Source of the DNA: Callaeas wilsoni | Lineage: Eukaryota; Chordata; Aves; Passeriformes; Callaeidae | Length of the DNA stretch: 64,000 bases | Reading direction: 5' to 3' | NCBI GenBank assembly: GCA_013398955.1 | Contig: VWPU01004623.1 | Location: 124,001-188,000 of the forward strand | Shown: piece after piece, positions 1 to 35,000 of the stretch | Numbering within the stretch: the first letter of the stretch is position 1 | Layout: every line of letters begins with the position of its first letter | Notes under the pieces: generated by a model | The model's database searches: none | The model's input: the letters and a program-made list of their open reading frames with translations, nothing else | What the model was told of the DNA's origin: nothing | Position numbers and translations under genes: made by a program

Positions 1-1965
1 TCTACTCCGCTCTGTGATGGTTTCAAGTTAATTAACTGAGTCAGTTCATCTCCAGAAGCAAAGGTTCTGTCTATGTATCAACAAAAACAACAACAAAAAA
101 GCAAACAAAAAACCAAAACACAACAACAAAAACCCAAGAAGTTTTTAATTATTATTGTTCATAGTGCAAAATCTTGGCTTTAAAAACTAGGGAGCTGCAG
201 TATATATATATATTTTGCTGCTTATATTGTGGAAGTGAGAAAATGGAAGAAAATATTTTCATCTTACTTATGTTCACAGCAGAAAGAAGAGTAAGTCAGC
301 ATCATGGATACAACCAGCACTGCATTTCATGTTATTTGGAAGCAGATCCAAGTATTGCAAGCTATTTCCTCACAGAGTTTCTAAATACAGTCTGTTCTAA
401 ATAAACTGTTCTTGAAGAATTGTAAACTTTATTGCTAGTTTGTACTGGTATAGGAGACTCTGGCCACATCTTCACAGAGAATCATCTTCATGTTTCCAAC
501 ACTTCCATGACAATTAATATTGCCACACCCCACTGCTAGGAATAATCACGGCAAATTCTTTCTTCCTAAAGTAAGCAAATATATTTTTCTTTTCATCTTA
601 CCTCACACTCCCCTTCAAGAACAAGATATGAACTAGCTTTGATGTAGCAAAGCCAGGATTCGGTTTTTCTACTTAGCTCATCCTGAAATATATATTCTGA
701 TCCAGTACTTGACAGATTAAGAAAATGGATAAACATTGCATCTCCAGAAATATCACTACTCTGCTGGAGCAGTTGAAAAACTTTTGTTCCCATGTTGAGT
801 AAAACCAGTAGCTTTTTATGTAAAAAATAGTGGTTTGAGGCAGAGGAATTAGGGAATTTGGAGTTTTTTAGTCATACGCTAGTGTTCGCAAAGGATAACG
901 TGCCAAAGAAAACCTGATTATCTGTTCCAGGGGTTTGTTGCAGGATGAAGACAAGAAAGCAAGGCTCTGCTTTCATCTTGTAAGATATCAGCTCTACTCT
1001 TAACTAATTTCTGTTACAATAGAGTTGTGCTTGCTGTGTTTTTGTCTGGGCTACAACTTGCCCCTGCCTTGCCTGAGCTTCTAGGACACTCTGTGTTTGC
1101 ATTGCATTCTCTAGCCCTCAAAGAGGCTCCTATTATCTAGTTGAGAGTGCCAGTGAAGACAGATCCCCGCTCAGACAGAGCACACTCTTTCCCATACACC
1201 TCTCCTTCCAGATCAAGGGGAATTAAAAAACCCCAAACTCTGAGCAGGTAGTAGATGATAGATTGGTTATAATTTTCTGTTTGCTGGCCAGCAAGGCTTG
1301 GTAGTGTGAGGGAGTTAACTGTGTTATACTTCTAATAAGAGCCGTCAGCAACTCAGTGCTTCCATAGGGTGAGAAGAAGCAGGGAGAGAGAGCAACCTGT
1401 ATTTTACAGAATCTGTGAGATACTGCAGCATCCTCAGTATGATTCCTTTCACAAATTATTCTCATTTGGAGCAGAAGGAGCTTAATTTTCATAAAGGAAC
1501 AATTAAGCGGATTCTTTCTGTAAATTCTTCTGGTGTCAGAGGGGCTTTGGCACCTGAGCTGTCAAAGTGCTTCAGTACATGCTTAAGCACATCAGTTCTA
1601 GAGTTTTTAATGAAATTGTAATGGGAGGTGAAATTCAGTGATTCTGGGAACAATGTCTTGAGAGAGAATTTGACCTTTCATTCTGCATTTTTAAGTGTTT
1701 AATTTATGTTTTTTAGGAGTTGTACGGGAACAGTAAGGGAGAGAGGAGAGACCTCCTGAGGTATGTCTCCTTTTAGAGGTACAAAGGTTTGGACGGCCTT
1801 CCTATGCATCAGTGATAAAAACTGTGTCTTGAGTGCCCTGGTCTTTGAGACTGAAAGAGCAAATCCTTAGCTTGTATGCAAGGGACTGGTGGTGTTCTCA
1901 GTGCACGTATATGGAGGTGCTGGGCTATACTGTTGAAGAAACAAGAGAAGTTTTTGCATGATTAC
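1..1965. other. Left end, unassigned
   Basis: There is no exon I can support here. If the gene continues into a phosphatase part, its next exon should enter in phase 1, and I found no such exon with a family match. One minus-strand island at 602-682 has good splice sites (TATATTTCAG and GAG|GTAAGA) and an open frame starting DELSRK, but its phase does not fit exon 39 and its residues match nothing known to me. Confidence 0.5.
77..140. repeat. CAA/A-rich low-complexity stretch
   Basis: Irregular repeats of CAACAAAAA and CAAAACA on the plus strand. It may be a decayed poly(A) tail of a retroelement or plain simple repeat; no adjoining element is recognised. Confidence 0.6.
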
Positions 1966-2074
1966 TTCTAGGTAGAACAGGAATCCTGTGGGCCATAACA
2001 TCATCTTCGTTATTCCAGCTGCCTGACTCAGACTGTTGATTTTCTCTTCCGCAGCTTTCACATTCTGCACATTT
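1966..2074 (-). CDS. Possible coding exon 39: acidic pre-phosphatase-like linker
   Basis: The candidate runs from a TTACAGGTCACAG acceptor to an A|GTAATC donor, phase 0 in and 1 out. The frame reads [20 protein letters not shown], then [16 protein letters not shown]. The [11 protein letters not shown] segment recalls the acidic EITWGNDELPI stretch of PTPN13 that lies between PDZ5 and the phosphatase domain. The better-looking acceptor (GTTGTTTTACAG, exon start 2081) has the wrong phase for exon 38, so either the inner AG is used or another exon intervenes. No phosphatase exon is visible between here and the left edge. Confidence 0.4.
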
Positions 2075-5000
2075 CTGTGACCTGTAAAACAACGTTAGTT
2101 GAAGTGGCAGAAGCGTTGATAATCTGAACCATAAAAGATTTTGTGTTTAATCTATTTTTGATCACTTTTAATTTTCTTGAGCAACTATTTTCAGGAATTA
2201 GTCTGAACTCTGAAGATCATAAGTTCAAGGACTTGTAGTAGCATTTTGTCTGGAGTATTCTTTGCAAATAGAGCTACGAAAAATACTATTATCGGTATGC
2301 GATTGTCGTTGTTTTTTTCCAGAGGTAAAAAACATACTCTGAATAAAAAGCTGCTCGAAAATGACTGGAAGTAAGGTTCCTCACAGCTAGAGACCATTTT
2401 TCATGTCTGACATTTTTCTATTGCTAGCCCTGACACCTGAAAGCTTCATTTTCCTTGTCTCAGTAGCTGTGTGGAAGCTGTTTGGCAGCTCTTCCTGCAG
2501 GTGGAGCTGCATTCCAACAGACCCATGTTTCTGTCATTCGCATACCATAGCAGGACAGGGCTGGAAATATAAGAATAATTTATCCATATTATTTTCTTTT
2601 AATAATTTTACTTCATTTGAAAGATTTACCTGTCCGAAATTATATCCTTGTAGTCTTGTCCAGCCAGCTGACCTTGCAGAGGAGATTTGTCTGTACTTTC
2701 TGGCTCCTGCAGGTTTCAAGTAAGAAAAAGCTGTGAAAAGTCAGTACACAGAAACATCAAGAATATAGTTACTTTTATCGACACTCTTTCTTATTTCTGA
2801 CAGGAATGTGTCCTTCACTCAAGAAGGAAAGGGAAAATACAATAGTTTCCACTTTCAGAAGAAAGTGTGTATTGCAGTACCTAGTCAGAGTAAAAAGCCT
2901 TATCAGCTGCATTTTTAAGTTTCTGAACAATAGAACAATACAGTCTAGAGACACCTCTATGTCTCAGCATGCATGACTGAACTTTGAAAAGTTTATTATA
3001 TCCTCTCTGATCTCATAAAGAAAATGCAATCACAGGAATCATGAGTCACACTCTTCCCCTCCCAATTCTTGGCAGCAGGAAGCACCAGCATCTGAGATGG
3101 AACTGTTGGTAATAATTTCCTTTTTTTATCTTAGACACAATGATGCCAACAGTAGAAGCAGGGTGCAGCTGCTCTGCTGAAGAAGTACTCAACTAGCAGA
3201 GAAGGCAGACCTTTGATGACCCTCCATATGCAATACAAGCAACAGTATTGGTGGCTATTTTTCCATCCTAGAGAGTAATAACTAGGTTCTGCAGTTAAGT
3301 AATCATACAGGGCATCTGCTGTTAGTATGTGAAAGTAGCTTCTTCTCAGCTGTAACACTATACAGATAATTATTTAAATTTTAGTTCAAACTGGTGTTTC
3401 TTCTTATTTCACTGCTTAATATTTCAGATGACCCCAGAAAATACCCTGGCGTGCTGCACAGTATAAATTACTGAACGACCCAGAGAATCTTAATGGTAGC
3501 TCCCACTTATACCTTATTTTCTTACTTTTGTGCATGTATTTCCCCATTAGAATAGGGACATTTATAGCTGCTCATTTAAGCATGAATTCATGTACCCAGT
3601 TTCTGCACCTACTGATTATGTAGATTAGAGACTGCTATATTGATTTTTGTGTTTGATTTGCAAAGAAAAGCTATTTTACTGCTTCATTTTTACTTTTTTT
3701 TCTAGTAGCTTGTCATTTTCAAAGTCTACATCTCTGGAGTAGGTGGCAGCTGTACTCTATAAAGCACAGCATAAATAGTTTCTATTCATAGGAGACAACT
3801 AAAGGCAAGCTGCAAATAATGAAGAAGAGAGAGGTTAATGGAACCAATTCAGGAAAAACACTAAGTACATGCTTAAATTTAGGCATGTGCTGTGCTGAAC
3901 CAGATAGACTTAACCACGTTGCTTAGCACTAAATGTTTCCCTTAATACCTTGCTAACTCAGGGATCTGATAGGTAACCTGTAACCTTACTACTGTCTCTT
4001 ACTTCTCATTGATATTATTTGTTGGGTGTACTGCTTTGTCAGATCATAGAGATGACCTCATTTTCATACTACATTTCACTAGTCTCTAAAAGTTTAGTTT
4101 CAACACCCATTCCAACAGCATACTTAAAACTTCCACAAACAAGTTCCTTTTCAAGGTTTTCTCAGCTTATTTATGCCAAGGATTCTTACTATTTTTCTAG
4201 TTCAATTCTATTACTTGGATCAGAGTTGGTTTTTTGAATTTGTTTTCTAGGGGATAAGAAGACCTAAATTTCTCATGTTTACTGAGGGGTTTTGCAGTTT
4301 TAAACTTAGAAATAATAGATGTTCTGAATTTAGTGTGAAATGTCTTGCAGGATTTACTAAGATTCAAAAACATAACCATGTTTAAATTTAGATGCATTTG
4401 AATGATGAATATTAGTGGAGATAGTTGAATAGAAATCTTTTAATGTATATGGTTTTGAAATACTGAAAGAATGGTAAAATTAATAAATTATTCATTTCAG
4501 TATTATGAAGAATCAGAACAAGACTTGCATATGCAACCTTTCTTCCCTGCACCCTTTTAGCGTATGTATTATGCTATTGTATGCTCTTGTCTCAGTGGAA
4601 TCCTGACCCACTCAAATGCCAGCAGCTCACATCCCTCACATTAAACTTTTTTTCATTAAGAAGATGAGGTTCTTGCCCACATTGCAGCAAACCCATGTTG
4701 TAAACAAACATAAGAGTACATTGCCTGATAACTTGTGAAACCTTCTCCGATTTTACCTTGTTGCACATTTGTTTGGAGCCTTCTTCCTTGAAACTGAAAA
4801 CAGGCTGAGCTCGCAGGCTTTCCTCACCACTTGCTGAATACCAGAAAACAAAACCGAAATCAAATGCTTGAAAATACAGGTCCATTTCTTCTCTGCTGCT
4901 TGCACCAAAGGACTTTGACCTCAGGTGGGGCACTGAGATACAGTGCATTAAATTGGCATGGCATCTCCCTTTTGTGAATGCCTTGGAGAGTTAATACAGC

Positions 5001-8000
5001 ACAAATGCCATGTGTCACCACTGAAGAAGCCAGCATAATTCAGACTGCCAGAGGATACACTGAAGTAAAGCCCTGTATCAACAGCAGCTACCAAAAAAAC
5101 CCTGAAACTGTTTCAATCTGCCCTCCCTAACCCAGCTTATTCCTCCACAGTGCTAAGGGGAAAATACCATAGATAACTTTGCTGCCAGTACTTCTATAAT
5201 ACCATTGTGTTTTGCAGGAAAACTGTTTAAACTTCCCAGAAACTATGTAATTCATGGATGTCATGTAAGAAGAAAGTGGCAGTGTCTTCTTGACTAAGAA
5301 TACTTGAAACAAAGGCTCCAATTTGTAACCAGCAGGCCAGAAGGAGGAATTCTATATCCTTCCCATTTAAGTTTCTCCACATTATAGGAAATGTTTCAGT
5401 ATTCAAAGAAAAAGAAAGTTGAGGACTATAACTCCATAATCTATTGGTAATTTTATATCCTTGCTTCTGCTCCCAGCTCTAATTAGTATTTAATTTTTGA
5501 ATATTCAGTAGAGCAGAGCATAGAGCACAAAGTTCTTCCATAGTTAGTCATGCCTCTAAGTACTGCCTTATGCAAGATGGGTGTGCTCTCGAATGAATAA
5601 CAATAGACCTGGGAGCAGAGGCTTCTGGATTTGAGCATGATTCTGTGCTTGTTGCACAGAAGAGACAGGATCTGTCTGCCAGACAGAACAGGAGGTGTAG
5701 GGCTTCCAGGAGATAAGTAGGAGTGATGGGATGTGAAGTTTGTGGGAGAAGTATTTTAGCAACTGAGTCAAAAATGGACTGTGATTCCATCAGTGAGTTG
5801 TGTAAAATGGGGTAAAATCAGACCAACATTCATGACTTAAAAACTTAAGCTGAGTTAAAGCATCTTTGAGGGTCTTACACCTTTCTTCCTAGACTGTTCA
5901 TAGACTTAAAAATCACACTTGGGCATTCCTTCCCTGTGGTCCTATGTCGTGAGCAGTTTAGCTAAAGCTGCAAATCAGGGTGAAGAATGTGCTTGTACTT
6001 ACAGCTATGAAACGGGACTAACTGTAAAATTGACTCGTTTTGATAATACCAAAGTTGAATTAAGGCAACACATAATCCCACTTCTGTCATATGGTGAGTG
6101 GATGTAGCTGCTTACCAGGCTCTGCTTTTGTGTTTGGGGTGGAAGCTCTGTTGCTCTGGTTGCCCGAATAAGCCCAATGCAAAGCCACACTTCGGCAGAC
6201 CGTGAGTTGAACAGTGCCTTGAGCCTTGCGCAACAAATCTGTAACTGTTTGGCGTGGCAGACCAGACACAAAAGTCTCATTCACCTGAAAGATACAATGA
6301 TGTGTATTTTCAGATTCCTGTAACACAAAGCCTTTTTTTAATCACAAATCCTAGCACTAAGAAATCTTTATATAACTTCTTTGAGGTTTGTTTGTCCTCA
6401 TTTTCTCCCGTTTTTGGGAGAGTTCTCATTCTCTCCTAACTTGCTTGACCCTCTATGTCTTTATACCATGATTGCCAGCAGGACACCACAAAAGTATAGT
6501 TTGGGATAGTAAGTGGGCATTCCCCCATTCTTTAGCGAGAAGATGAAGGAGACATGGAAGTAAATGAAAACCAGAAAATCAAACAACTTTGAAACTCGTG
6601 GAGGGAGAAGAAAAAATAATTTGGGGTAACAAAAAGGATGATTTATATTAAAATGTGGCAAGGTGGCTAGGATAGTAAAATTTTAATTAAAGATTCAAAA
6701 GCCCTAATTCCAGTGCTTTTTGTTTGTGTTGATAATAGCTAACTGGCACTGTGACAGGTTCTTCCCAGTAGCCTCGTGGTTAGCTGTTACCTGCATGCTT
6801 GGTCAGTTAACTCTGGTTTCCCTGAACTTTCTCTGGAAACCTTGCTAGGCACAATTACAGTCCGGGGCAGGTGCAGTTGGCTGCTTGCTCGCTTGTTCTG
6901 GGTCTGCCTCTGCCGCAGTGTCCGACCAGCAGCTCTGGGGAAGCCCAGTCCCACAGGAGGCTGAACCCCAGGGAAGACACGGGGGCCCCAGGACAAGGCT
7001 CTGGCCGCCAGGAGCCGCGGGACAGCACTTCCTGTGCGTTACTGTGCACAGCAGCGTCAGAGTTCCAGTCTGCACCAGCGTTGTATGGAACAGATGCTCC
7101 TTATAGAGTAAGTAGAGAAAATGTAGGCCAAAGGAATGAAGAACAAACATTACCTTGAGTAAGATGTCACCAACTTGAAGTCTCCCATCTAGATCTGCAC
7201 TGCTGTCCGGGCTGATGGCTTTTATTAGGATAGCCCTGCCATTTTTTCCACCTACCAGTGCAAATCCTAGGCTTCCATTTTCTGCTTTTTCCAGCTCAAT
7301 CTTAATAATGAAGTCCTACAACAGACAAGGATGCAGTCTAAAGTGGAATTTATTCAGGGCTGTATTTTGTTGGCATTTTTATTACTGAAGATTCCCATTA
7401 TGCTTCACAGTCCTCACTGTCTGATGTGGATTATAGGATATATCCTACTCTTGAATAGATCCATAGAGCTTCCAGGGATCAAGATAACAATTGCATGTAT
7501 GTAACAGAATGAAAATAGTAAATACTTATTTTCATTCCCCTTTTAGTAATTGCTGCTGGAGAAAATAACCCCGTAAGAGCAAAGAAACATGTACTTCTGT
7601 AATCCTTTTATAATACATCAAATAAATCACCTTAATTGACAAATAAGGCATTCTTATCTTCAGCATGACAGTAATACAGTACATAGTTTATTCTCTTATT
7701 TTTTTATAATTTAAATATTAATCTTGTAGTCCCAAAATTCCCATCTCTTTTACTTTAGCACTTCATTTGCTTTTAAAATCAGCTGCTTTTTTAGGGTCAA
7801 GTACTATGTCAGAAATAGCAGCAAGCTAGAAATGTTTATGACTTGCAGCATGACTAGTTCCAATGCCACAAATATCAGCCTCAGAAATTATTTTTGCTAG
7901 TTGAACAGATAAACCATCATTGATTAAATCATGCAGAAGCAGCAGTAATAGTGATGACAATCAAAAGCAAGAAAATTGTTCCAATTTTTTTGCCAGGTTG

Positions 8001-11000: not shown

Positions 11001-14000
11001 TTTTGAGGTCATCTTTGCATGATTTAAAAAAAAGCCAAAAACCATTGAGATATCCAGTCAGGTAAATGAAACTGGGGTTAGGCCTGACTTAATGCTGCAG
11101 CCAAGTGTGGATTGGAAAGTACTACTTGCATAACTAACACCCTTTGTATGCGCTGACCTGAATGGGATACCTGTGCTTCCACCTGAGTGTGCAGGTGCAG
11201 CCTGTGCTTGCTGAGACTCCTTCCACTGCTAGAGCAATTCTGGTCAAGTCTTTGTAGTGCAGATGATTACTGAAGTTTTGCATCAGTTAGAGTACTGAAT
11301 ATCTTCCCTGATAGGAATGCTTTTATATTAACTAAGATATCTTGGTGCTGCCTGCTTCTGATTTTATATGGTTTATTGATAACAGTTTAAAAAAGTGGTC
11401 TAGGTGATGAAGGAGTGCCTCATATTAAATAGTGGCTCAAGAAATGCTGGAAAACTCCTCAGAGAATAGTTTCAGTCAAAACAGATGTTGAAATATGACC
11501 ACATAAAATTCCTATTTAATAGCAAATTAAAAAACCAGAAACTAAATATGTAATTAATTTTTTTTTTTTACAGAGAACTATCCATTTTATTTCTGTCTTT
11601 AAACAGCTACCACATTTTCTTCAGACCCTTAAACTGGCCACAACAGAAATACTGGATGCCAAATTACAATCTGTTAATAACTTTTAAATGCAATGAATCA
11701 ATACCTTATGCTTATTTTCAAAATCAGAGGCAAGTTTTGAACTAAAACCCAAAAATATTAGCCTTACTTACTATTTTCATGCTCTATGGGAACCACTGGA
11801 TTGCCATTTCTGGGGGCAGAAAAAGTGAAATATGTGAGCCATTAAGAGCTTCATGCTTTGTAAAGCACATATGAAAATTATTTTTAGAAAGTCAATTGTC
11901 TAAATAGTAGTTGTGCTTCTATGATTTTGTCAGTGGTGCTTTTCTAAAGAGAGTTTATATCAGTATATGAAAATATTTGACTATAGTGAAACATTTTATT
12001 AAAATGTGTTGAGGAAAAAAATAAGCATGTTGAATCATCTGGCCCAATACAGAACTGCTTTCTGGTCCATTCTGAATTCAGCTTTGGTTACTCCCTGTAT
12101 AAAGTGGGAATGCTCTTTTGTCAGTTCCTTTACCCTGTTACTGTTTACCTCCTTAGTTTGTAAATTCTGACAATCAGGAGGTGCTGCCTACTAACTTGTA
12201 CAGCAAGATGAATAGTGAGGCAGCAGTTTCTTCTTCTGTTAGATAAGCATAAGTTAATACAACAGTGATAAAAGTTTAAACTATGTTAAAACAGCTGTGA
12301 CAGCCATTCTGTCACACACTCTAGTTATGTAACTCAGTTATTCACATGCTTTGGGTTAATATTTTACTGTTCTTCTGAGATCTTTGGAAGTTATTTCTGC
12401 ATCAGTCCAGGACCTGAGCTGGTGTGATATCAGACTGTGGAACACAATGACTCTGAAGTGCAGCCATGGACTGAGGAGCGAAATCCTTTACAGCCGATCG
12501 TTGTTCAGTCCTGGAAAGACTTTCTGTTCATGCTGCAGATTAAATGCTGCATTTTTAGTACCTTTCTAAAATGTTTGGCTTTTGGAATTAACTCTGAATT
12601 TATGATCAGAGGTAGTTCCTTGCTTGTAGTCATGAATCTGAGATTGTAAGGAGAAAGTTGACACTACTGGTGGGAATACAAAGATTTTCCCTGGAGAACA
12701 AGACATATGAAAATGGCACTCAGCCTCACAGTTAAAGGCTTCAGATTTGGTTTTGGATGACGAAATTTGAAGAGTTCTCATTTGTGTTTTATGAGTCTAC
12801 TTGCACTCGCTGTGTTAGTTGTAATTACAAGGAGTTAAGATATCTTATGAATGTTATTTATCAGGTTGCAACATTCAGACCTTTGAGATTAAGCATTTTT
12901 CTGTTTTGTGCTGTCTGACTTGTTGATGTAAAATTTAGAAACCTGCTTCAGCATTAGGATCAAGTATGCTCAGATTTACCTTGTGGCTTTGATTTGAACA
13001 TTCTGGGTGGCAGCTTCACACACTCTCACTGCATCATCCAGGCTAATGCCCTCAGTCCACAGTCCACAGATGTAAACAATCTGATCTCGTGGCTGCAAAC
13101 TGCCTTCCACACTGGCAGGAGAGCCAGGCACTATCTCTAGCACATAAATACCTTGTAACTTGCTTCCAGCTCCTCCTGTCAGCTTCAAGCCTAGAATAAT
13201 CCAGAGAGAGCATCTTTTGTGGGAGCGTCTTTTGAATTTCACTGTCAGTGACATAAAGTCTAACGGAATAGATGTGAGTCACTGAAATGCTGAACAAATC
13301 ACTGACATTATAAACAACAGTCTTGCCCCAGTAAGATGGGGTGTACAAGCTGGACTGAGAGAGTGAAATGCCATTACATGTTTAAAAAAGTATGGAAAAA
13401 CTTAAATGGTGGTGTCCATCTCTATGTTTCAGTGATTCTGCAGTGCTTTATTTCATAGTCATTGCAATAGGATGCTGAGCTGCATAGCAGCAGCTCCCTC
13501 ATTACCAGCACATTTAAATGCTTGCAGTCGTCAGGGTGCCATTGGGAATGGAGGCCTACGACAGCTGAGGAGGTGCCTACACAGCGCAAACGACATTCAA
13601 GGGATCTCTGAACAAACTAGTTCCTGCCTGGAAACAGGATGTTGTACATGAGCAAATACAGCCATACTGCTCCCTGAGTTTTATCTGTGTGCAGTACTCA
13701 TAACATGCTACAGAAGTACCAAGATACTCACATTGTGGGGATTTCTTTTATCATTTGTATTGCACAATGCAGATAAAGCCTTGTGTCTGTGGTGAATCAA
13801 GGAATCAAGTGGAGATTTTGAATAGCAAACTGTAGTCTCAACCTGTGGCTCATCCTTCTTAAACTTTACCTTTTCTTCAATTTTTTTCTTTCCCTCCAAA
13901 TAAATCTTTTTATGTCTCTGCAGGTAGTAGATATTATTATCCAACTACCCAAAACTTAGGTGTATCAGTAACATAAAAATGTGAGACTGGAAATTTGCCA

Positions 14001-17000
14001 GAAACTTCAGTTAATAGGGTGATAACACAAAGATCATTTTTCCAACTATCTTCATTAGTCTAGTAAGAGAGATTAGTTTTCCCTCTTAGATGTTGCCCAA
14101 AATAAAGCTCTCATTCCTTGGTCATGGGTGATCATGAAGAGCATAAAGGTGTCAAGGTCAGTTTGTATCATACTGATCTGAGACCACGGTTGTTTATGAT
14201 TATCTTATGCTGTCATTCCTGTCCAAAATAGCAAGTACAGATTTTACTACACACCTAGCTGTCCATCGGCATCCTTTGTGAGAGTAATTTCAGGAATCTC
14301 ATCTGGCCTAATTGAGGGACGTGGGTCGCTGTCAGCACGACCAACCACGAGATGCAGATCTGGAGGAGAGCTTTGCAGTAAAGTCAGGACTTCAGTGCAT
14401 GGCAAAGATGTGACATCAATTCCATTCACCTAAGTGACAAACCAGTAAAATCATGTCATAGACCTCAATGACCATCGTTTACTTCTCTCTCCACTCTGAA
14501 TTTTGCATATGAACTTAAATTAGTTTTTACTTCCTTGTTATTGCTTTGCTGTGGTATTTAATATCAGCGAATTAAACAGTTAAGATTGCAGTAATATTTC
14601 TTTTTTGAACTTTTATTTTTCTGAATGCAGAGCTTTAATAAAAATGGCTTTTTTTTTCCATTGAAACTCAAGATCTTGTTGCAAAAAACAAGGAAGTGCA
14701 AAAATTTGAACATGAACCAGGCTGAAAAAAAGGTTTTATTCTTACATTACAAAGGACATAATTCCTGCATCCTTTGTGTGTCACCTACCACCTTATTACA
14801 TTTATTCAGTTTATGTCATTTAATTGGGAAGGCATTTAATGTCTCACTTGTCTTGCATTGCTCCTAGATTCATGTTATTTGCCTGGTCATACAATCTATT
14901 CAGTCTGAAATTTATCCAGCTGAGGTCAGCAGAATTAGATTTATTTTATGATTTATTTACATACCTAAATACATGATAAATGGGTGATACCAAACGAAGA
15001 ATGCCAAAACTAAATGACATTGATCTGCAAATATTTTCTCCTCCTTATAAACTCAAACAATTACTGTACCATAATGATTCTGTCTCCCCTTCTCAATCTT
15101 CCATCAGAAAGGGCAGGATCATTCAAGATTTCATCAACGTACAGGCAGGTGTCCATTTTGTTAAGAACTACAGAGAAGCCATAACCGTTGTTCTCTGACT
15201 TTGTTAAAGTCACAAAGATCTCCATTTCCTATTAAAACAAGCACAAAGTACGTTTGATGTAGGCTTTTCTGTTGCTTGATTAACATCTTCCGTTATTTTT
15301 TATATGTGGGTAGGAATCAGATCCTCAGATGGTACAGCAGGAGTATGCGAAAGGTGTTCTGCCATATCCCAGAACTGTGGAGGTTCATGCTGATTGATTG
15401 ATAGGGCCTAATAAGGCAGGGAATACTACCAGGAGCTGGGATTTGGGCATTTGGAATATGTAAAGAAAGACTTGGAGTCCTCTGAGCTGGTAAGCATTGC
15501 AATAGCACGGTGCAAAGATTACTGTTGTTCCTGCTATTGCTGTCCCACTGAAGGAAATGCCTGGAGCTAAATTTTGTCCACAGTGCTCTCAAATTAGCAG
15601 GAATTCAGAGCTCATTACTGTCAGTAGGAATGCAAGATGTTCAGCATTTGGCAGGACTGAGCCTTATATTTTGAATAGTAATTAGCACAAAGATCATACT
15701 TTCTTATCAGGACATTACAGCAATATCACTGTAACAAAGTGATTTTCTGCATGGGCTTGAAACATGGCAGAAAAAACAGAAGTAGCTGACTCCAATTAAT
15801 TTTAGAAGCTACTAGAGAGCTTTTAGGCCTTTGTATACTGAGAGTAATAATGCAGAATTTGAGAAAGTTGAAGAAATAGTAAGATGTCAAGAAAAAAGGA
15901 GTAGCCTTAAGGCAAATGGTTAAGAATTCTGGAGAGCTGGGCGTAGTGGAAGGTCTGCTTTATTTGAAGATTGTGGGTATTCAGGAAAATTATATTAAAA
16001 AAAAAGTCACGTGGAAATAGCATAGAAAATGAGTTAAACTTAATGTTTAAGAATGTAACATTCTGAAAATTGTTTCTTTTTCCTTGTATTCTACCTGTTT
16101 GTAATTTGGTGCCTATCACATACCTGAGTGCAGTCTTCATTTTCTTCCTTCTCTTCTTCTGGTTCCTCCAAGTCCTCCCATTCGTTGTCACTGTCATGTG
16201 TCTCTCTAGCAGGCAGGGATGATGATGAGGGAGCACAAATGCGCGGTTGTGGGGCCGCAGTGGTTGCAGAGACTGTCTCGGAGCTTCCTCCTCGTGAAAG
16301 TGAGGTCACAGGCATTGAGCTGATAGTGAGATACTCTTCATCAATAGGGGTTAGAGAGAGAGTTTCAGGCATACATTTTGCGTTCGATAGGTCATCATGA
16401 CTCTTATTAAATACACGGCTGGAAAATAAAAAGATTGCAGTGCTGGGGTTTTCCTCCATATGCTTTATTAGACGGCCACTGAAAACTCTACTGCTTATGC
16501 ATTACCTTATTTTCATTTTAATTGAATTACTAGTTATGATATTGAATTGCTGTCTGAATCCTCCAATGTTAGTGTAAAAACAAATAAGTAATCAATATTT
16601 TACAAAGCAACCTGAAAGATTAAAAAGCTTTCATTATTCACCTTTGCAAAATCTTGTGCTCTTTTAATTTTTTAAGGCATTAGTTAGTACTTTGGTTGCT
16701 TCTCGAAAAGAATAATTGGACAATGCCGAGACCATTAATTATTTCATCTTCCATAAAAAAATTAATTAACTTTTCTGGTAAGCAGTATGGACATTAAAAT
16801 ACTGCTACAATTTTTATATTAGCATTTTTTTCTGGAAAAAGGAATGCCAGCCACATTTCTGGCTTCTACAGGTCTTTCCTTGGTAACTGTGCACAGACCA
16901 GAAACATGAAATATGAAGTGCTTCCTGTTTCTTCATGAAAAGTAGAAGTCCTTACTCCTTTTTGTAAGCTTGCCTTTATTCTTATGCTTGCCTTGAAGCA

Positions 17001-20000: not shown

Positions 20001-23000
20001 TTGGGGAGCTGCAATAGCTGCATTTGAGAATATCTGCAGTTTCTGGCTGAGGATCTGGTAGAGCATTTTAGAAGCATCACTAGAAGACCTGCTTGGGTAT
20101 GTGCTGTTTCACTTCAGTGACAATATGGCAACTCAAAAGTTGTTGGGCTGGGATAAATATGTTTCATGTCTGCCAGATTTGTATTATTTTGGTTGCTAAG
20201 GAAGTATCAGTTGAACTCTACAAGCTGAGTTGAAGCCAGGAAGGGAAAGAAATGGAATAAAGGGCCTTGGAGAAAAGAGAAGGTTGCCTTGTTCAAGCCT
20301 GGGTAGAAAATGTAGTAGTGTCTTTGCAGGTTTACAGAAGCAAGTTTCTGTCAGAAGCTTTGACTTACCAGAGCAATCTGCTCTATTTCTGGAAGAACAC
20401 CTTTTGGTGGTCTGCAAAGTAGCAATGTAACTTCTCGAGGAGCTCCTCTTAACAAATGCAGGACATCCTAAACAGAAAGAAGGAATATTGTATTTCTGAT
20501 GGAACATGGTCTATCGCACATGTCATTCTACCAGCTGAGACGGAGAAAATTTTTATTGTGAATGCTACATTTCTGGTCTTTGTGCCTCTCAGCAGTGTCT
20601 GAGGGCCAATATTCACCACTGAAGGATTGTCATATAAGTGGACCATAGTTTATATGTGAACATGTATCTAAAGTCAAGTCAGTTCTGTTTACAAACTTCT
20701 GTTTCACCAACAGACACATAGGTTTAGGTTAATTAATTTTCTTTTCTTGAAGAAAACAGAATTTTCAGGCAAATTCATTCAAACCACATGTGGCAGTAAC
20801 ACATCTTTGGTGAATTTTTTCAGCATAGCTCCCCAAACAGCCATATTCCAATTAAAAAAAAAAAAAATCCACACGTAGGCCATTGCCATTTAATTTCTTC
20901 ATTGAGTATGGAATTTTTCATTCCAGGTTAAAAACTTATGCAGGACTTACCACTCTTGGTAGAAATTTGAATCTGGGGCATTATATTTAGCATGACATTA
21001 CAAAGCACAAATGACCACAGGGGGAAAATTGTTCAATTATGCATAACAGCAACAAAGATTCCAACTAATTAACAACTGGTGTGCATCTAACAATAGAATT
21101 CATATATTAGTGGTAGAAACTTATAAATTAAATAGCAGAAGAAATTCGCTGTCAGAATTCATTTAGAAAGGAATTCTACATAGGAGTTCTAGAGAAGAAT
21201 CCTACATAGAAATCAGATTAATTATATGCAAGTTCTGCCTCCCTCTGGTGATAATTAAGTTTAAATTCATTGTCTTTTTTAACCTGTTACCTATATGGAT
21301 CCCCAGTAATAATACTTCCTGCTACCTGATACAGAAGCCCTTGGAGAGGTTTTCCATTCACAGCTAAAATGACATCTCCAGCTTCAATTTCTCCATTCTC
21401 TTCAGCTGGCTGCCCTGGAAACAGTCTTTTGATCCTGACAATAGCTCCTCCAAGGTGTTCCCAAGCATCTCCTTCCATCTGCAGAACACTAAATCCAAGA
21501 CCTCCAGAATTCTTGGTTAATTTCACTTCAAATGTATTACCTGCTCAAAGCAGAGATTGGGAAAAAAGGTGGGAACCATGGCATATGTACCCCCTAAGGA
21601 GCCAATATAAAACATACTCTCAAAAGACTTTTTCCCTGGGTGCTGAACAGGTAGATCTACTGATACTAATGTCAAGAGAAGGTTTAGGTGTTCCTTTATG
21701 TTACATAAAGCTTTGAAATCTCACAGGCAGAATAGGGAGAACTGGAATCTGCTCCAGCATGTGTTCACAATCTGGTATAACCCCATAAAGAAAAAAGCTT
21801 TTTGTGCCTGCATAAAGAGATTCACATGCTATCTTTTTCTGACATTCTTCTGTAAGTGTTGCATAGATTCTACTGTTCTGTAGCTGCCCGGTGTTAGTTT
21901 AGGTCCTGCACTAACCAGCATAAGCTAGAATTGGAGCTCCTGCTCTTTCCAGTCAAGAATGAGAGATCAGGCCTTTCCCAAACACCATGCTCGTAGCTGA
22001 ATTCCAATGTAGAGGACTAACTGCCCCGTGGAAAACTATGGTTCAGACTTAGTGTTTATGAGACAACCTTCAGTAAAAGATACAGCATTTATTTGTTGTC
22101 TAAATTCTGTGTAAGCGATCTCTAAATCTTCTGCTTTTAATACATTAAGTGATGGCAGTCTCCAGTTCACTCCAGCTTCATCACTGTTCCCGCATCAGCA
22201 GCTGTGCTGGCGAGGCTCTCCCTGGGTAGCAGCCCGGCCACACGCACACAGCCGCTTCCTGCCCAGATGCTGTGGACTACAGACACGGTGTCCCCGTGCC
22301 AGCCCAGCCTCACAAAGGCTGAGAGATACCGTAATTATGCCTAGGATAAATTCCTCTGTATCTAGCCACTATAACTCTACGTACAGCAGAAATATCTTGC
22401 TCAGAATTGATTTTTGATAATGTCGTTAATATTGAATATTATAATTTTATTCAGTATACAGTTTTCCTTCCAACCCACAGAAATTTCATAGAATTATTTT
22501 CATTCATTCCTTTCCTGCATATTGTAGGAAGTCACCCTGAGTTCCTTCTTTATCACTTACCATCTGTCAAAAAGCAGCAGTCCTTGGTACCATCTGTGAG
22601 GGATGTTGCCACAGAAACAACTGCACACTGGTCCTCCTTACTGTCATTAGCAGTCACACATGGCTCTGCCAATTGGTAGTTTCCTCTTTCTAGAACCAGC
22701 CTGGCAATCTAAAACAGTGATGAACAGGTTCCAGTTACACAGGACACAGTGAGCCCTAAGTCTTTTTACTTTTCTGTTTAGAGGAACGGGGTCAGAACAG
22801 AGCGGGGGTGGTTCTTTCAGCCAAGCTTGGCTGCTGTGCTTCACACTAGGTCCAGTTTAGTCTGCTGGGTATCTTACTGATCTCTGCTGTTGTACAAACC
22901 TGGCCAGATTTCTTAAGGTGTTCCACAGCCTGTTTGTGGGTGATGCCACAGAGGCTGATGCCATCTACTTCCAGCAGACGATCACCTGAGGTTAAAATAA

Positions 23001-25965
23001 AAAGAACATCAAGTTGCTTTGATGTTCGGGTTCAGAGGGTGTAAACCTTCAGGCTGCCCATGTTACAAGAGGTCTTCATGCTTACGTATGTCGAATTAAT
23101 ATTAATTCGTAGAAAAGCAATACTGCTTGCTGTACAGCATTCTGTAACTAGCAGCTAAAACATTCCAGGGTATTCAGTAAGTAAATGCAGTGACAGCATC
23201 TGGTTATCACAGTAACAGTGATGTCAGAGTCACTAGCCTGAGGGCAGCTTCAGAGGGTAACTCTACAACGCTGGTGTGAGGCTTCTCCTTTTTCAGTGGG
23301 ATCCCTACATGTGGTCAGAGACAGGCTGAGGAATGATGGACTGTATATTACATTTTGCAGTTGTAAGACCTCCAATCCCAAATGTGTTTCATTGTCCACA
23401 CTAACACTGAGTTCTGCAGCCCAGGGTTTTATTGCCAGGCATGTTACCTATCTTTATTTGTCCATCCTTATCTGCTGGTCCCCTGGGAATAATTGACTTC
23501 ACATATATGCCACCATGACGCACACTGGTGTTAATTCCACCCTGCAAAACATGCCCACAGGTTAGAGTCTTCATATATCCTTCCTCTGGTAAAAATCAAA
23601 GCAACTTGCACATGCATTGCAAAGTAACTGCTTCAGAAATTATTTTCTTCTTTAAATATTGGAAAAAAGGAAAAGAGGATATTACTCCAAAACTCCATCT
23701 AGTTGTAATATACTTCTGTAGGCAGTTATTTTATTTTATTTACTCAGGAAAATGCAATGTATTTCTATGTGACTATATAAAAATATTTACTAAATGTTCA
23801 TAAATTTTTCCCTATGCTCACATAAAATGGTCTTGCATCTTTCAGTTATTCTCTAGCCCAGCTTCTGAGCTGTGCAATATCCATTCTGCAATTATTAATC
23901 TTTCAGACAATATATCAAGCAGGGACCAGAACTTGGGCACTGAGAGAAATTCCAGATTAACCTAAGAATCATGTTCTGCCCATCTACATCTCTTGGCCGA
24001 ATTCAGATTTAAAAAACCCAGCCCTTAATTTGTTCTGCAGGCAATGAGATGGCTGCTGCTTCCCATTCCATTTCAGCAAAGACTATAAAGATATCTCTGC
24101 CTGGAGGTGTAAATTCAACTTAAATGGCTAGGACCAGGAATTATCATCCAAATGTGGCAGACAGTTTTCGCTGCTGCCTTTTCTAGTCCTTCCTGACCAA
24201 ACTCTGCTTTCAGTGGTAGATCTTGCTCTCAAATTGAGTAAGGACAAAAAGGGTTTGTACTGCCATGTGCTTTATGCCAGAACACTTCTTTCACAGATTG
24301 TGTGGGTAAGAACCAGGGAATGAGCAGAGACAGTACTTTCATGCATTCTATGTCAATCAGTTAGACACTTAGGTTTAAAATGTGCCATGCTAAGAGTTTC
24401 TGTTATCAGCCTATCTTCTTTGTTCTCGGTTATGTAACAATTTGACAGACACAATGAAAGATTAACAGTAACACTTGCAGTCACGCTGATTCCAAAAGTC
24501 CCATCTTCTTTAACAAGCTCCACCGTAAAGATTTCCTTTGAGTTGGTTTCTGATGGAGATGGTAAGTGGGAAGAATCAGCTGCCTGTCTCAAAAATAAAA
24601 ACTTTAATGAGATTACAGCATCTCAGTTTAAAAAGAAAGGGGGGGAAAGAAAATTAAAAAAAAAAAAAAAGGAGGAGAGCGTTTCCAGAAGACATAGAGA
24701 GGGTTTCATCATGCTCTCACTGTAAACCTGGAGTGATACCATTTATATCCTTGATATTATTGGAAGCTTATGCTAATGCTACTCAAAATGCAATCTGTCT
24801 AAATGCACATAACCTGAGTATATATAGGGAGGATGTCTAAAAGTAGGAAATTAGACACAGAATGTTCTGTGACTGGTTTGAAAACTTAAAAGATAGCAAG
24901 AAAATAATCAAAATTTTGTCCCTCCACTGGAAAAGGAAGGAGAATTTTAAAAACATTTTGTAGAACAGTTTCCCCATTTATTCACATATTCCAGACATGT
25001 CTGTCATTTCGACATTTTCAATGTGATTTATTCCAAGGTTTTCTTTCTCCTTTCCTTCACAGTTACTTTCCCTTCTACATGTAGCTGGTATGTTGTTATA
25101 TATTGTGTGCTGGGTGTAACATTACTGAGCAATATCAAAATCTCAGTTACCTCTACATCCAGGCAATCAGCTGAAGGAACTGGAATCCTAGGGCCCAATT
25201 TTGGTGCTAAATTCCAGGAAAGAGTCTTCTCAGGTTCGTCTATATTTGTGTCCTGTTCTTTGGGGAGAGCTGTATGACAATCCTGAATCTTTTTTCTCCC
25301 ACTGTCTACACAAGAGATCTCAGATCCACTAGTGCTGTTTCCTCGTGATAGATTCTTTTCTTCATTTAATCCTTCTTCATACATGTCTGTAAAGCCATAC
25401 CAAAATAAGACATAGTTGAATACAAATAGCAAGTAAACTTAAAAAAAAAGTTGTTATAACCCAGAACAAGAGAACGAAGTAACTTCCTATTTCAACTGAT
25501 TGTGAAATCCCATCTATAAAATGAGTTAGCCACTGTAAAATGGAGCACTGATATTGTAAGAGTTCAGAAATGTGCTTCATCACTGCAGAGGACTATGACT
25601 CTCTGTCAGAGAAAAAAATGCCAAAATTTCTTTAGTGTTCAGCAAGGCAGCCCATAATAGATTTTTTCACACTGGTGTAGCAGAGACATCACATGATACC
25701 TACTAGAAGTCGACTATTTTAGCGTATGGTTGTTCTCAGTGGCAGTCAGTAGCAGGAACGTAGTACTACATCCCAGTGCCTAATAAATACGAGTGTCCTG
25801 AGTTAACTGCTAGCATCCCATGGCCAGCCCAGTCATTTGCCTTTATACCTTTGGGTTGAGAGATGATAAGCTCCACTTCATCGGGAGAGTTCTGTATGAT
25901 TTTAACTGCAGTATTAAATGAAACACCCTCCAGGCTAATATTGTTCACAGAGATGAGTCGTCCTC

Positions 25966-26027
<62 letters not shown>

Positions 26028-29000
26028 NAAAAAAAAAAAAAAAAAAAAAAAAAAAAGATAAAATAAGACAAAGCATGTCTAAATAAGGAAATAAATCCAG
26101 AGTAGCTAACTTTAAACTATGTAAGTATTTTAATTCTAATTGAAAACTAAGGAAAATGACCTGGTTTGATATTTCCAGCTCTGTCTGCAGGTCCCCCAGG
26201 GATAATTGAAGCGATAAAGATACCAAGGTCTAATTTGCCTACGTTTTCTCCTCCAATAATTACAAAACCTGCAAAAACGAGATATCATGAGCATGCAAAC
26301 ACTGGCAGTATTAGAAAAGATGAACCTTAGGAGCACAAAAGGCTCTTGCTCCAATGGCATAAGTTTTGTACATGATCTGAAGGATGGGGAGCTTTGATCT
26401 ACATGGCATCAAGGTCGTAACTTGAGAGAGCTTTAAACTTACATTATAATTAAAGTGTGCTGGTGACTTTGGTCACTATTTAGATATAATTTCCCACTAA
26501 CAATGCTTTCCTGGCTTGCTGCTTTTAAAGACTATAACTACTTTCTTGCAAGAGTCATGAACTAGGTGGACCTGCAGCATTTAACACCTGCAGGAGGGGA
26601 ATGGTATAAAAGCTCATTAGATAAATTTGGACATTATTCTACATCATGCAACCAGAAAAGCTGAGATGGGCCATGTAAAGTTTTGAAGTAAGATATCTAA
26701 GAAGATTAAATCTATTGTTAAGTAGTCCAATTTCACTATCCTAACTCTAAATATTGCAGAATATATTCTTCTCATTGGTATAATAGTTGGGTTTGAGATT
26801 AAGATATTACACACAGACTTGCACCGTTTATAATTTGATTTTTAGTTGTATTAATGGTCATCTGTGAAATTTGATGGTCCGAACTCATCCACAAGAACAG
26901 GATACAATATGATTAAGGTATTAGATAACAAAAACATTATCCAAGTAACAATCCAAAAGCTGAGAAACATTCATGTTAAGTTTGCGTAAACATTTTGCAT
27001 CCCCACAGACACTGTCTGTAAGGTCTAAGATAAATAGTATCAGTACACTTGTATTTCAGACACAAAACTAAAATCACGTTCCTTTCATTCTACTCTTAGC
27101 AGTTGGTTCCTTTGGTCTCTGTGGCCTTAGTTAATACTCTGAAAACATAATGGTCTAGATTTATGTGCTTAGTTCTTTTCAGTCCTGGAAGTTCTGAGTC
27201 CTTCACAAAGCCTGGTACTCTCACTCTATAAGAAGAACAAATGGAGTAAAGGAGTTTACAGTCTTGCCCAGCCTGAGTCAGCACGTATCACCGTTAGCAC
27301 CAGGATCTGATAGTCCCGGTAACAAACATAGCATTTGTGTTCCTTACTTACCAAACCCATTCTTAGGGTCACGTTTTAGGCTGACACAAATGATTTCTCT
27401 TTCTAGACCACTTAGCAAAACTTCCTTTTGGGTGGCTGGTGATCCAGGTGCTGCAGAAACAAAACAGCTAGAATAAATGTAGATTAATTCAGGGAGACAG
27501 TAGATTCATGCATTATGCAAAACTGGAGCTTCAAAAATTAATATTTTTTTGTCCTTGATTTCAACATTACTGTTACTTTTGAATCAGTATAACTCTGGAT
27601 AGAAGCTCAAACAGGTGTTCAGAAGTTTTCATTCTTTAGAAAAATCTACATACAGAGCTGTGTGAGCTCTTCCTTCAATGCTCCTTCCTGGGAGACTATA
27701 TATTTTTCTGCAATGTTTTTATTAAGATCAGAATATTTAAAGAGTCAGGCATGTAGTGCCCGTTGCACCTGAGGGTGATTTGGACACAAAATCTCCTATG
27801 GGCTCTATCCTTAGGCCCTGTGGGCCCCTTTGGCTCCGAAGGTGCAATCCAACAACACTGGTTGCAATGGTGACCTCTGTAGTGTTAACACTACTTAACA
27901 TTGTGCAATTGCCACAGTGTGTTTAAAGTACCGTTCTGATTTTAAAATGGACTAACCAAATAAGCATAGCTTCATACTCCATAGATTGGCTTCCCACATG
28001 TATGCAGTCTGGCTCTGATAGAAAATTAGGTATCCAGTTCTTATTCCAGGAAGTGTCATGCAATTGCCACAACAGAGGAAAGACCTGGAGCCTGCTGTCT
28101 CATGCATTATTTATTGAGTTGTAGATCTCAGTTGCAAACCGAACAATGACCTCTGAGCACAGGGATATTGCCCTGTGCAAGAGTCTCCGGGTGTACTGAA
28201 CTACATCTCTGTAGAGCACTAGGCACCATTATGATATCATTTATCAGGAAGTCCCTTACCACTGAACCTGATGAAAAGTGGGAGTTAAGGGCAAGAAAAC
28301 AGCTTGTCTTGCTAAACTCTGGATTATTTTCCAGGGCTAGAAGTAAAAAAGGATAGTCTTTAATCTGTAAGTAGAATATATGTTGGTCTCCTTCTATTGA
28401 AACAATAAATATGGAAGGGTGCTGTCTCTCTTTATGATCATTTTACTCACCACTGATTGTGTTCTGAGTTGAATGAATAGAGAGGAAGTCGTAACTCCTT
28501 TGCTTTCCATTCAAATTGATGTTTATTTCTGACTGGGATAGCCCTGATACAGATCTGTACGGCAGGAAAAGAAGACTGTGTTACAATAAAAAGTCAGCAG
28601 TGGTATTTATCACTCTTCATTGTCATTAGGCTGTCAGAGCCAAGCTGGGAATGCACAGGTTTATAGCCTTTCAATAAGTATTCTGAATTCTGGAACATAT
28701 TTCATTTTAGGGGCAAGGTAGTTTATCCTTGCCAGCATTTGCTTCCAAATAACAGCTACCATTAGACCACTCATGTCATGACCGATTTCCTCCTATGTTT
28801 TGCTCTGAGCTGACTGCAGGTATCAGGAAAACACAGAATAGCTTCACCATGATTCATTTAACCCTGCTGTCCATTTAGAAAAAAAACGTCTGAAAATTTT
28901 CCTGGTAGTTTATTTTCTCTTTGGCTCTATTCTAACTCTTAGTATTCTAAAAGGCACTAGAATTCATCAGAGGCCTTGAGACTGTGCAGTTATAGTAACC

Positions 29001-32000: not shown

Positions 32001-35000
32001 ACTCTTCTAACTTTCAGTGTAGTAGGAGACTTTTTTCTGACTGAAGCAGAATGAAACTTAGGTGGCAGGTTCTAATTCTCAGCTTTGGAGAATATACCTC
32101 ACCTAAAGCATAACCTTATCCTACGGCCCCAGTAACAAAAGTGCATTTATACCTCACCTGGTGAAGTTTGCCGAAGTTGCCTAGAATTCATCTGTGCATT
32201 GAATTTGTGCTGGGCAGAGCAGAGGTCCAGTAGGTATTTACATGTCTTCGCTGTATCAGTGAGGAAGGTGTGTTTCTTGCCACTGAAGCTGCTTTCAATC
32301 ATGAATTTTTTTCTCTGAAGAGGAGAAGAAAAGTACAGCTTGCTTCATATATATCAGTCATTACACTGAGTCACTGGCAGTTAATTTATATAATCTTGTT
32401 GGTTTGTTCAGTTGTATTTATGCCTGACTGCATCCCATTTGCGTGCAGTAAATGCCTGTTGTATATTCAGCACTTGTAAGCAAAGTGTCTGTCATTGGGG
32501 TTGTAACTCAGTTCTATATCAAAAGTCAAGAACTTTAGGACATTGAATGCATTGATAGCAGGTTGCTAAAACTGCACAATTTGGCCCTACGGATTGTTAA
32601 AATTATTAAACAAATTTAATGTGAAAAGGAACACATCTTCAAGGGGGAGAAGAACCATTTTTGGAGAGCAAACAAGCTGGCAAATGTGTGATCCAGTCTG
32701 ATACCTAAACTCTACGATAGTGCATTGATATACCTCTAATGTCAAAAATCCCATTTAGAAAGGGGTCACAATCTTGTCACCAGTACTAGTTTGTTAGCAG
32801 ACATCAATATACTGTGAGATGAGGATGGGAATAATGAGATTTGGAAAGTGGAAGACATGATCCAATGACCTGATGTAGGCAGAAAAACAGAAGAAAAGAG
32901 CAGTAAAGACAAGAGAGGAATGGATATGGAATATGCCATAGAGAGGTTTGGCATAGTCTCTGTAATAGTCAGCACTAGATTATTCCGTTTTATAGTAATT
33001 TGACTTTGGCCTCGGCATAAAAACTGCAGAACTATACGTCACAAAGAACACAGTATCTTCACATCCACATCCAGATCCGGCTTTGGTTTTAAACTCTTTT
33101 CAGAAAGGACTTGCCCATACAGAGTGACTCTAATTCTAGCTCTGAATGCAATAAATTTATCAAAGTGGCAGGAGGAAGGGCAGTAAAGTAGTAGAGTACA
33201 GAAGAGATTCAGTTAGTTCCAACTCACATGAGCTGAAATTCTCTCTGTTTCACGCCACTGGAATCTTAAACTGGCAATTCTTGTGTGATTTTTGTTCTCA
33301 TAGACGATGATGCCTTTGGCACAGATTCCCAGGATGATGTCCCCTTCTGTCCCTTTCTTCTCTTGGGACACACGATAGAATAACACTCCATATTCAGGAA
33401 GCTGCTGAGTCACCTTGTAGAGAAAAAGTGCTTTTGCCATGCATTACTCAAAAAGACTCATGGGAAGAAAAGTCAGGTAGATGGAGGAGAAAATGCTTTT
33501 GAGTGTCTGAGGAGGCAGCGTCTGCCTCTACTATCTAACCATGCAGGGGATATTCTGAGGAACTCACCCAGAGGCTCTGGGTGTTCATGCTTGTCTTTCC
33601 CCCTCCTGTACTTGGCCACAAAAGTGTTAAAATGTGACTCAGGCGCTTTACAGAACTATGGAATATGAGTAGGATTTACTGTCTGATCTGCAGACCAATA
33701 TGAGTTTATCCTAAAACCTTATATTTTCTTTCTGGGAAGCTATTGTAGCATCCCCAAATGACTTTTCAATTGTGAACAGAGATTTTCAGTGACCAAAATA
33801 AACCACTTTAAGAAGATCTGTTTTTCAGGAAGTAACCACAGTACAAATGTTCAGGTCCTGAAAAGTGGGGCATCTATAATCACTAGCTGAATCTGGGTTT
33901 TAATTTTTAATCCCTTTCATATTTGGAATTTACATGTTCTTGCCATGGGGTCTATCTTTCTCACTTTGTATGATGTGTTGGCTCCTTCTACAGACTTATT
34001 CAGTGAAACAGATACTAACAAAGCTGCTTTTCTTCATTGGATTTGCCACGCATGATGAGACTGTCATTAAGGCTAAGCTTCAATCTATTTCTTCAATTGC
34101 ACCGACAGTGTTAGATGAGGAAAAAATATAATTAAATAGCAACCGAACTAAAATGATGCTATAAATAAAAGTGTGTGGCACTGCAGCAAAATCACTACTG
34201 GTATTTATTCATTATCTAATCCCTGATATTTTTCATTTTATGGAAAGCAGAGAGGTTTGGGAAGAAAGAAATTAGCAGGAAAAAAGTTAAATCCCATATC
34301 ATCGTGACACTTTAGAGCCCTAGAGAAATAGTCAAGTGAGAAAATACTTCAGATAACTCCTTCCTCACTTCCAGAGTTCACAGATACTTTTAAACAAACA
34401 ATCACTACATGTTTAAAAAGTGGCTGAACAGCTGCTGTAATTTCAGAAGTAAAAAAAAGTGCTTATCTCATGTTTTATAATCTTCTGGAGCATAGATATG
34501 TTGGTAACATGTCAAAAATTTACATCAAGCCTTAGAACGCTGCAAATACACCAAAACGTGTTATAAAAACTCTCAGTGATAAGTGACAGCATCTACAGCA
34601 GAATGAAATTCTGAGGTTTTTGTTGACTATTCAAATTCTTTCACGGTATCTAAAATCCACTGTATCAGGCAAGAAGAAAATAGACAACGGTAAACAGAGA
34701 GGCTTTCTACCTCAAAATTAATAAATAGCATTTGGGGAATGGCAAGTTACCTTTAAAAATTCTAGTTCAGCTTCATCCTCAAATAGGGAGCGATTCATAC
34801 GATGTAATTTAGCAAGCTCTCGCTGTACATATGCCAGGGTCATTTTCTCTATTCGACTTGCTGGAACATAGTCTTCAACACGAAAATAGCTCTTTCCATG
34901 CATCTGTGGGGAAAGAAATGGAAAAAACAAAGAGACAGGACCCTTTTGTTCTTTCTTGACTTTTCTTTTTCATTGCATTTCATTTTCAGGGTGACCCATA

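Follow-up and report, generated by a model that had tools for sequence, protein, structure and literature searches.

An apparently full-length FRMPD2-PTPN20 gene, paralogous to PTPN13, in the genome of a passerine bird

Locus layout and the exon chain beyond PDZ6

The 64,000-nucleotide stretch of Callaeas wilsoni DNA analysed here (the window; contig VWPU01004623.1, C2604:124001-188000 of the bird's own genome of 1.003 Gb) carries on its minus strand the exons of a KIND-like region, a FERM domain and six PDZ domains, and almost certainly holds the greater part of a single bird gene, full-length FRMPD2-PTPN20, which is paralogous to PTPN13. A first-pass annotation of the window had proposed that the gene continues past its sixth PDZ domain (PDZ6) into a phosphatase encoded left of position 1, and both parts of that proposal were borne out. 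From position 7315 on, 11 exons with AG/GT introns and compatible phases form a chain of 508 open codons followed by a stop codon at contig position 118397, the last five exons lying outside the window beyond the exon that starts at 70. Minus-strand phosphatase exons lie between 1.8 and 5.6 kb to the left of position 1; in a search of the bird's own genome with PF00102, the top scored match was C2604:121289-121633 (minus strand, 109.9 bits), with a further match at C2604:119594-119881. The joined Zonotrichia protein P0006 (2200 residues) gave tblastn matches that run in order along a single strand from window position 52163 to contig position 118397, and all but 18 of its residues were covered when cross-matches among PDZ domains were set aside.

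PDZ6, which when joined scores 58 bits against Pfam PDZ, is encoded by exons at 7154-7315 (phase 0 at both ends; acceptor 9.1, donor 6.9) and 6116-6284 (acceptor 7.6; donor CCTG/gtaagca, 9.7 bits; ending in phase 1). Four linker exons come next; their splice sites are fair to good except for the donor at 1966 and the acceptor at 70. Linker exon 1, at 4757-4833 (phase 1 in, phase 0 out), had been named as a candidate in the first-pass annotation and proved exact to the base, with a match to P0006 (tblastn E 1.5e-7). Linker exon 2, at 2630-2706 (phase 0 in, phase 2 out; tblastn E 9.9e-7), was absent from that annotation, as was the exon starting at 70. Linker exon 3, at 1966-2081 (acceptor 8.2, donor 2.5; tblastn E 5.6e-17), carries the acidic segment; it had been recognized as an exon but given a start at 2074 in place of its true border at 2081, probably because exon 2 was overlooked and a phase-0 start was therefore needed. 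Linker exon 4 (NRTFASGDELTQLINLKPSQSGV...) occupies positions 1-70 and runs beyond the window to C2604:123922 (acceptor 3.5; tblastn E 9.3e-22; phase 1 in, phase 0 out).

The joined 223 residues of PDZ6 and linker align end to end with the Zonotrichia, Corvus and Geothlypis proteins, and their linker part aligns with chicken, alligator and sea turtle; the gar alignment is weak in the linker, and shark P0107 aligns over PDZ6 only. Further along the same open chain, the classical phosphatase domain has its WPD loop and, in the exon at C2604:119839-119624 (window -4161 to -4376), a phosphatase loop where one had been predicted, reading HCSTGIGR instead of the usual HCSAGxGR with its alanine. By pattern, the loop was found in 215 of 357 fetched proteins (97 HCSAGIGR, 71 HCSTGIGR, 40 HCSAGVGR and 7 others), and both residues occur among birds, with alanine in chicken, emu and ostrich and threonine in Zonotrichia, Corvus, Aythya and Falco. 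Within the window, a search for HC..G..R returned one meaningless match, the signature being absent because the phosphatase exons lie outside.

Support for the chain comes from homology, phase and adjoining sequence, not from splice scores alone. At the chosen threshold, splice-site scoring yielded 217 candidates for minus-strand exons across the window, among which real exons were not set apart from decoys, and such scores were rejected as sole exon evidence; the real exon 1966-2081 is missing from the splice-score candidates listed for positions up to 8000. A warning against relying on these scores by themselves is provided by a minus-strand island at 763-602 (sites 8.1 and 10.1, open frame), which is probably a decoy: its frame misfits the phase after 1966, the aligned proteins of relatives have nothing between the 1966 exon and the 70 exon, and Pfam gave a single match, far below the cut-off. 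Pfam also gave no match for the two first-pass candidate exons joined together. Poly(A) signals, either AATAAA or ATTAAA, occur many times on the minus strand from 5494 to -7636 and do not discriminate between a joined gene and one that ends after PDZ6.

Upstream of PDZ6, the first coding exon, at 52041-52163, begins the KIND-like region (tblastn to P0006 residues 1-41, 90% identity, borders approximate), and exons matching P0006 residues 1-178 at 90-95% (tblastn) indicate that this N terminus is present. Pfam KIND had no match in the rough draft of the window protein and none listed for P0092; among other relatives it was above the cut-off in shark P0115, barely so in gar P0118 and just below it in P0006. 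The FERM exons span 32158-37069, with all three lobes (FERM_N, FERM_M and FERM_C) above the Pfam cut-off in the draft protein and supported by tblastn. Exons identified by Pfam PDZ and tblastn follow at 25849-27450 (PDZ1), 22561-24586 (PDZ2), 20369-21540 (PDZ3), 14255-15228 (PDZ4 and the start of PDZ5) and 12980-13190 (the main PDZ5 exon), so that, with PDZ6, the draft protein has six PDZ domains, each above the Pfam cut-off and together one more than the published five. A minus-strand poly-T tract at ~25970-26040, containing the single N of the window, directly adjoins the PDZ1 exon 25965-25849.

A second KIND-FERM-PDZ-phosphatase gene in the same genome

The same genome contains another KIND-FERM-PDZ-phosphatase gene, at C5139:101567-15613 on the minus strand, with PDZ1-5 in the same order, which is taken as PTPN13. 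Given this second locus and introns that agree wherever they were compared, the window gene is a PTPN13 paralogue, and PDZ6 distinguishes the two. In the linker and phosphatase regions, four introns share position and phase between the window gene and the C5139 gene when compared on both sides, as do two others on the one side examined. With a PDZ profile built from the six domains of the window, applied to open frames of at least 20 residues on C5139, no PDZ exon, and hence no PDZ6, was detected at E values as high as 0.5 in the interval from PDZ5 (27684) to the linker (19072); as a control, the profile recovered the exons of all five C5139 PDZ domains. Searching the genome for PDZ6 returned the two exons of the window as top matches and four others at E <= 0.001, each 3.6e-4 or weaker and none on C5139.

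It is practically out of the question that the window holds PTPN13 itself. Domain order and the compared introns would fit that assignment, but the second locus refutes it: C5139, a separate contig, carries the presumed PTPN13, and the PTPN13 arrangement of PDZ5 followed by a spacer free of further PDZ domains was not seen in the window, where PDZ6 stands at 7315-6116. Likewise, when the window draft was scored over PDZ4-6, bird FRMPD2 records came out on top, the nearest among the matches listed (Corvus, Agelaius, Molothrus and Geothlypis) being 88-89% identical.

On the rest of contig C2604, no nameable gene was seen among the 40 longest open frames, viewed by eye. Two very similar long open frames on the plus strand, at C2604:192012 and 195335 (~3.3 kb apart, judged by eye), are probably a duplicated or repeated stretch.

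Joined and separate models across vertebrates

We assessed how widely the joined arrangement occurs in a set of relatives retrieved with a PDZ4-6 query (643 proteins passed, 120 listed), which spans birds, turtles, alligator, lizards, coelacanth, gar, other bony fishes, sharks and rays. Among the matches listed, 102 of 120 combine PF00102 with PDZ domains, and 100 of these also have a FERM domain, which is not listed for the other two, P0046 and P0104. PDZ6 was found in 118 of the 120 (exceptions P0093 and P0104), a count that is no measure of how often PDZ6 is absent, the set having been selected by a PDZ4-6 query; by Pfam, all four proteins scanned (P0006, P0092, P0115 and P0118) have six PDZ domains. 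The suggestion in the first-pass annotation of one PTPN13-like KIND-FERM-PDZ-phosphatase gene is thus supported both by this genome and by joined models from sharks to birds. Since joined models occur in sharks, ray-finned fishes, coelacanth, reptiles, birds and marsupials, the fused gene is likely ancestral, and its halves would have come apart in the lineage leading to placentals.

Several observations weigh against a single joined product. Eighteen of the 120 listed relatives have no PF00102, protein records are mostly computed models, and stand-alone bird PTPN20 models (P0122, P0124, P0127, P0128 and P0129) start at internal methionines; judged by sequence, the start falls within the PDZ6 exon for P0122 and within exon 4833-4757 for P0127. 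Within the window gene itself, two linker splice sites are weak (donor 1966 and acceptor 70), exon borders and frame upstream of PDZ6 are approximate and drawn from homology, the splice-level chain covering PDZ6 onward, and exon order, frame and homology stand at the level of the genome, with the joined transcript of this bird a prediction. These points leave room for one locus yielding mainly two proteins, a phosphatase-free FRMPD2 that ends early or retains an intron in the linker and a short PTPN20 with an internal start, the joined form being minor. The PF00102-free relatives, the internal starts of the bird PTPN20-only models and the weak sites at 1966 and 70 would all suit this arrangement, as would the models P0002 (Agelaius) and P0048 (Hirundo), which end by read-through of the 1966-type and 4757-type donors, respectively, at both of which the window has similar open tails in like-reading frames. 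We nevertheless consider it unlikely, as 102 of the 120 models listed are joined, and both the frame and the sequence of the linker exons are maintained in the aligned chicken, turtle and alligator proteins, something that a never-joined spacer would not require.

A mammal set was retrieved with an approximate human FRMPD2 probe among candidates of ~720-2290 residues (523 passed; 120 rows listed, counted as rows and not species). By organism name, 112 of these rows are placental, 4 marsupial and 3 bird, and 1 is unnamed; the set covers annotated models only, some of which are hidden by the length limits applied. Among the matches listed, PF00102 was present in none of the 112 placental rows, in 2 of the 4 marsupial rows (P0350 and P0352) and in 2 of the 3 bird rows. 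PDZ4, PDZ5 and PDZ6 were each found in none of the placental rows or the unnamed row listed; all four marsupial rows listed (P0349, P0350, P0352 and P0353) have PDZ1, 2, 3, 5 and 6 without PDZ4. Pfam counts were consistent with this pattern, with three PDZ domains in each of four placental proteins scanned and five in both marsupial proteins scanned. Aligned to the marsupial joined protein P0350, the placental FRMPD2 proteins P0242 and P0347 match to about residue 1282 and that of Acomys (P0338) to 1379, and the placental phosphatase records P0230 and P0205 match from about residue 1644, their start methionine aligning with an internal methionine just after PDZ6, where likeness is weak. The P0338 model (Acomys russatus) passes the usual FRMPD2 end into an acidic ...SDWEDLEEP linker, which is perhaps a relic of a lost middle part.

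The placental annotations, in which the two halves are mostly separate and PF00102 is absent from the 112 placental rows listed, could also be taken to mean that two adjacent genes have been fused only by gene-prediction software. This we regard as very improbable: the exon chain from PDZ6 to the stop is unbroken and phase-compatible in this bird, and the two halves have been joined by reverse transcription-polymerase chain reaction (RT-PCR) in fish and human cells (PMC3335823). The full-length gene remains the reading we adopt, and the further first-pass idea that it later split into FRMPD2 and PTPN20 is supported with qualifications. Separate placental models agree with a split, but the joined human transcripts described in the RT-PCR section of PMC3335823 speak against a plain one, as does the ferret record P0205 (Mustela putorius furo; 421 residues, phosphatase-only), whose name, 'FERM and PDZ domain-containing protein 2 isoform X5', assigns the phosphatase to FRMPD2 in at least one placental. 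On the strength of the human HEK293 transcripts and the ferret name, the placental split may be confined to annotated models.

One possible history, offered tentatively and falling somewhat short of probable, is that a jawed-vertebrate ancestor had six PDZ domains and the phosphatase, and that this gene eroded stepwise in mammals: marsupials would have lost PDZ4 and stayed joined, and placentals would have lost PDZ4-6, with FRMPD2 ending after PDZ3 and PTPN20 starting at the former internal methionine just after PDZ6. In the same scheme, PDZ6 would have been lost from PTPN13 or else gained by FRMPD2-PTPN20. Our confidence in it is lowered by ferret P0205, given the placement of its phosphatase in a placental FRMPD2 gene.

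Proposed product and comparison with known systems

The predicted transcript would be spliced after PDZ6 from 6116 to 4833-4757, 2706-2630, 2081-1966 and 70, with five further exons to the left of the window leading to the stop. Its product would be a submembrane scaffold phosphatase in which the KIND-like region and FERM domain are followed by six PDZ domains and the acidic linker, with a classical tyrosine phosphatase at the C terminus. By analogy with PTPN13 and FRMPD2, the FERM and PDZ domains may hold the enzyme at membrane sites and deliver substrates to it. The weak junctions (donor 1966 and acceptor 70) and the read-through models P0048 and P0002 suggest that phosphatase-free products are made too, and the linker stretch would then be the point at which phosphatase-containing and phosphatase-free products part. 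Placental records mostly name FRMPD2 and PTPN20 as two separate genes; the complete chain in a bird genome, with PTPN13 as an internal control, makes their one-gene origin plain and shows which parts, PDZ4-6, the placental FRMPD2 models seen do not have. In work on FRMPD2 or PTPN20 in chick, fish or marsupial, a joined scaffold phosphatase is to be expected.

The one-gene idea itself is confirmed here and is not new: van Eekelen et al. proposed in 2012 that frmpd2 and ptpn20 form a single ptpn13-like gene, and their section 5 reports RT-PCR joining both halves in zebrafish embryos and human HEK293 cells (PMC3335823). The fusion is also already carried by NCBI bird models, in which 'FERM and PDZ domain-containing protein 2' (for example P0006, P0001 and P0044) is the same gene with the phosphatase domain annotated, differing from the window by species and by isoform choice in the linker. 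Among the papers listed, judged largely from titles and abstract openings, neither the count of six PDZ domains nor the marsupial-placental difference in PDZ domains and phosphatase was found.

Compared with PTPN13 (PTP-BL, PTP-BAS) on C5139, the window gene is alike in domain order, PDZ1-5, linker and the compared linker and phosphatase introns, and differs in having PDZ6, which was not found in PTPN13, and in its loop (HCSTGIGR versus HCSAGIGR in PTPN13). Of the placental pair, FRMPD2 matches the window-type gene from KIND to PDZ3 and PTPN20 matches its linker and phosphatase; the pair differs in being mostly annotated as two proteins, with PDZ4-6 absent both from the FRMPD2 models seen and from the aligned PTPN20 records. 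Another close counterpart is the full-length Ptpn20 described in PMC3335823, which likewise unites KIND, FERM, PDZ and phosphatase domains in one gene; that paper and a 2023 review that restates its proposal and describes FRMPD2 as PTPN20's missing upper half (PMC9900141) both give it five PDZ domains, compared with six in the window gene.

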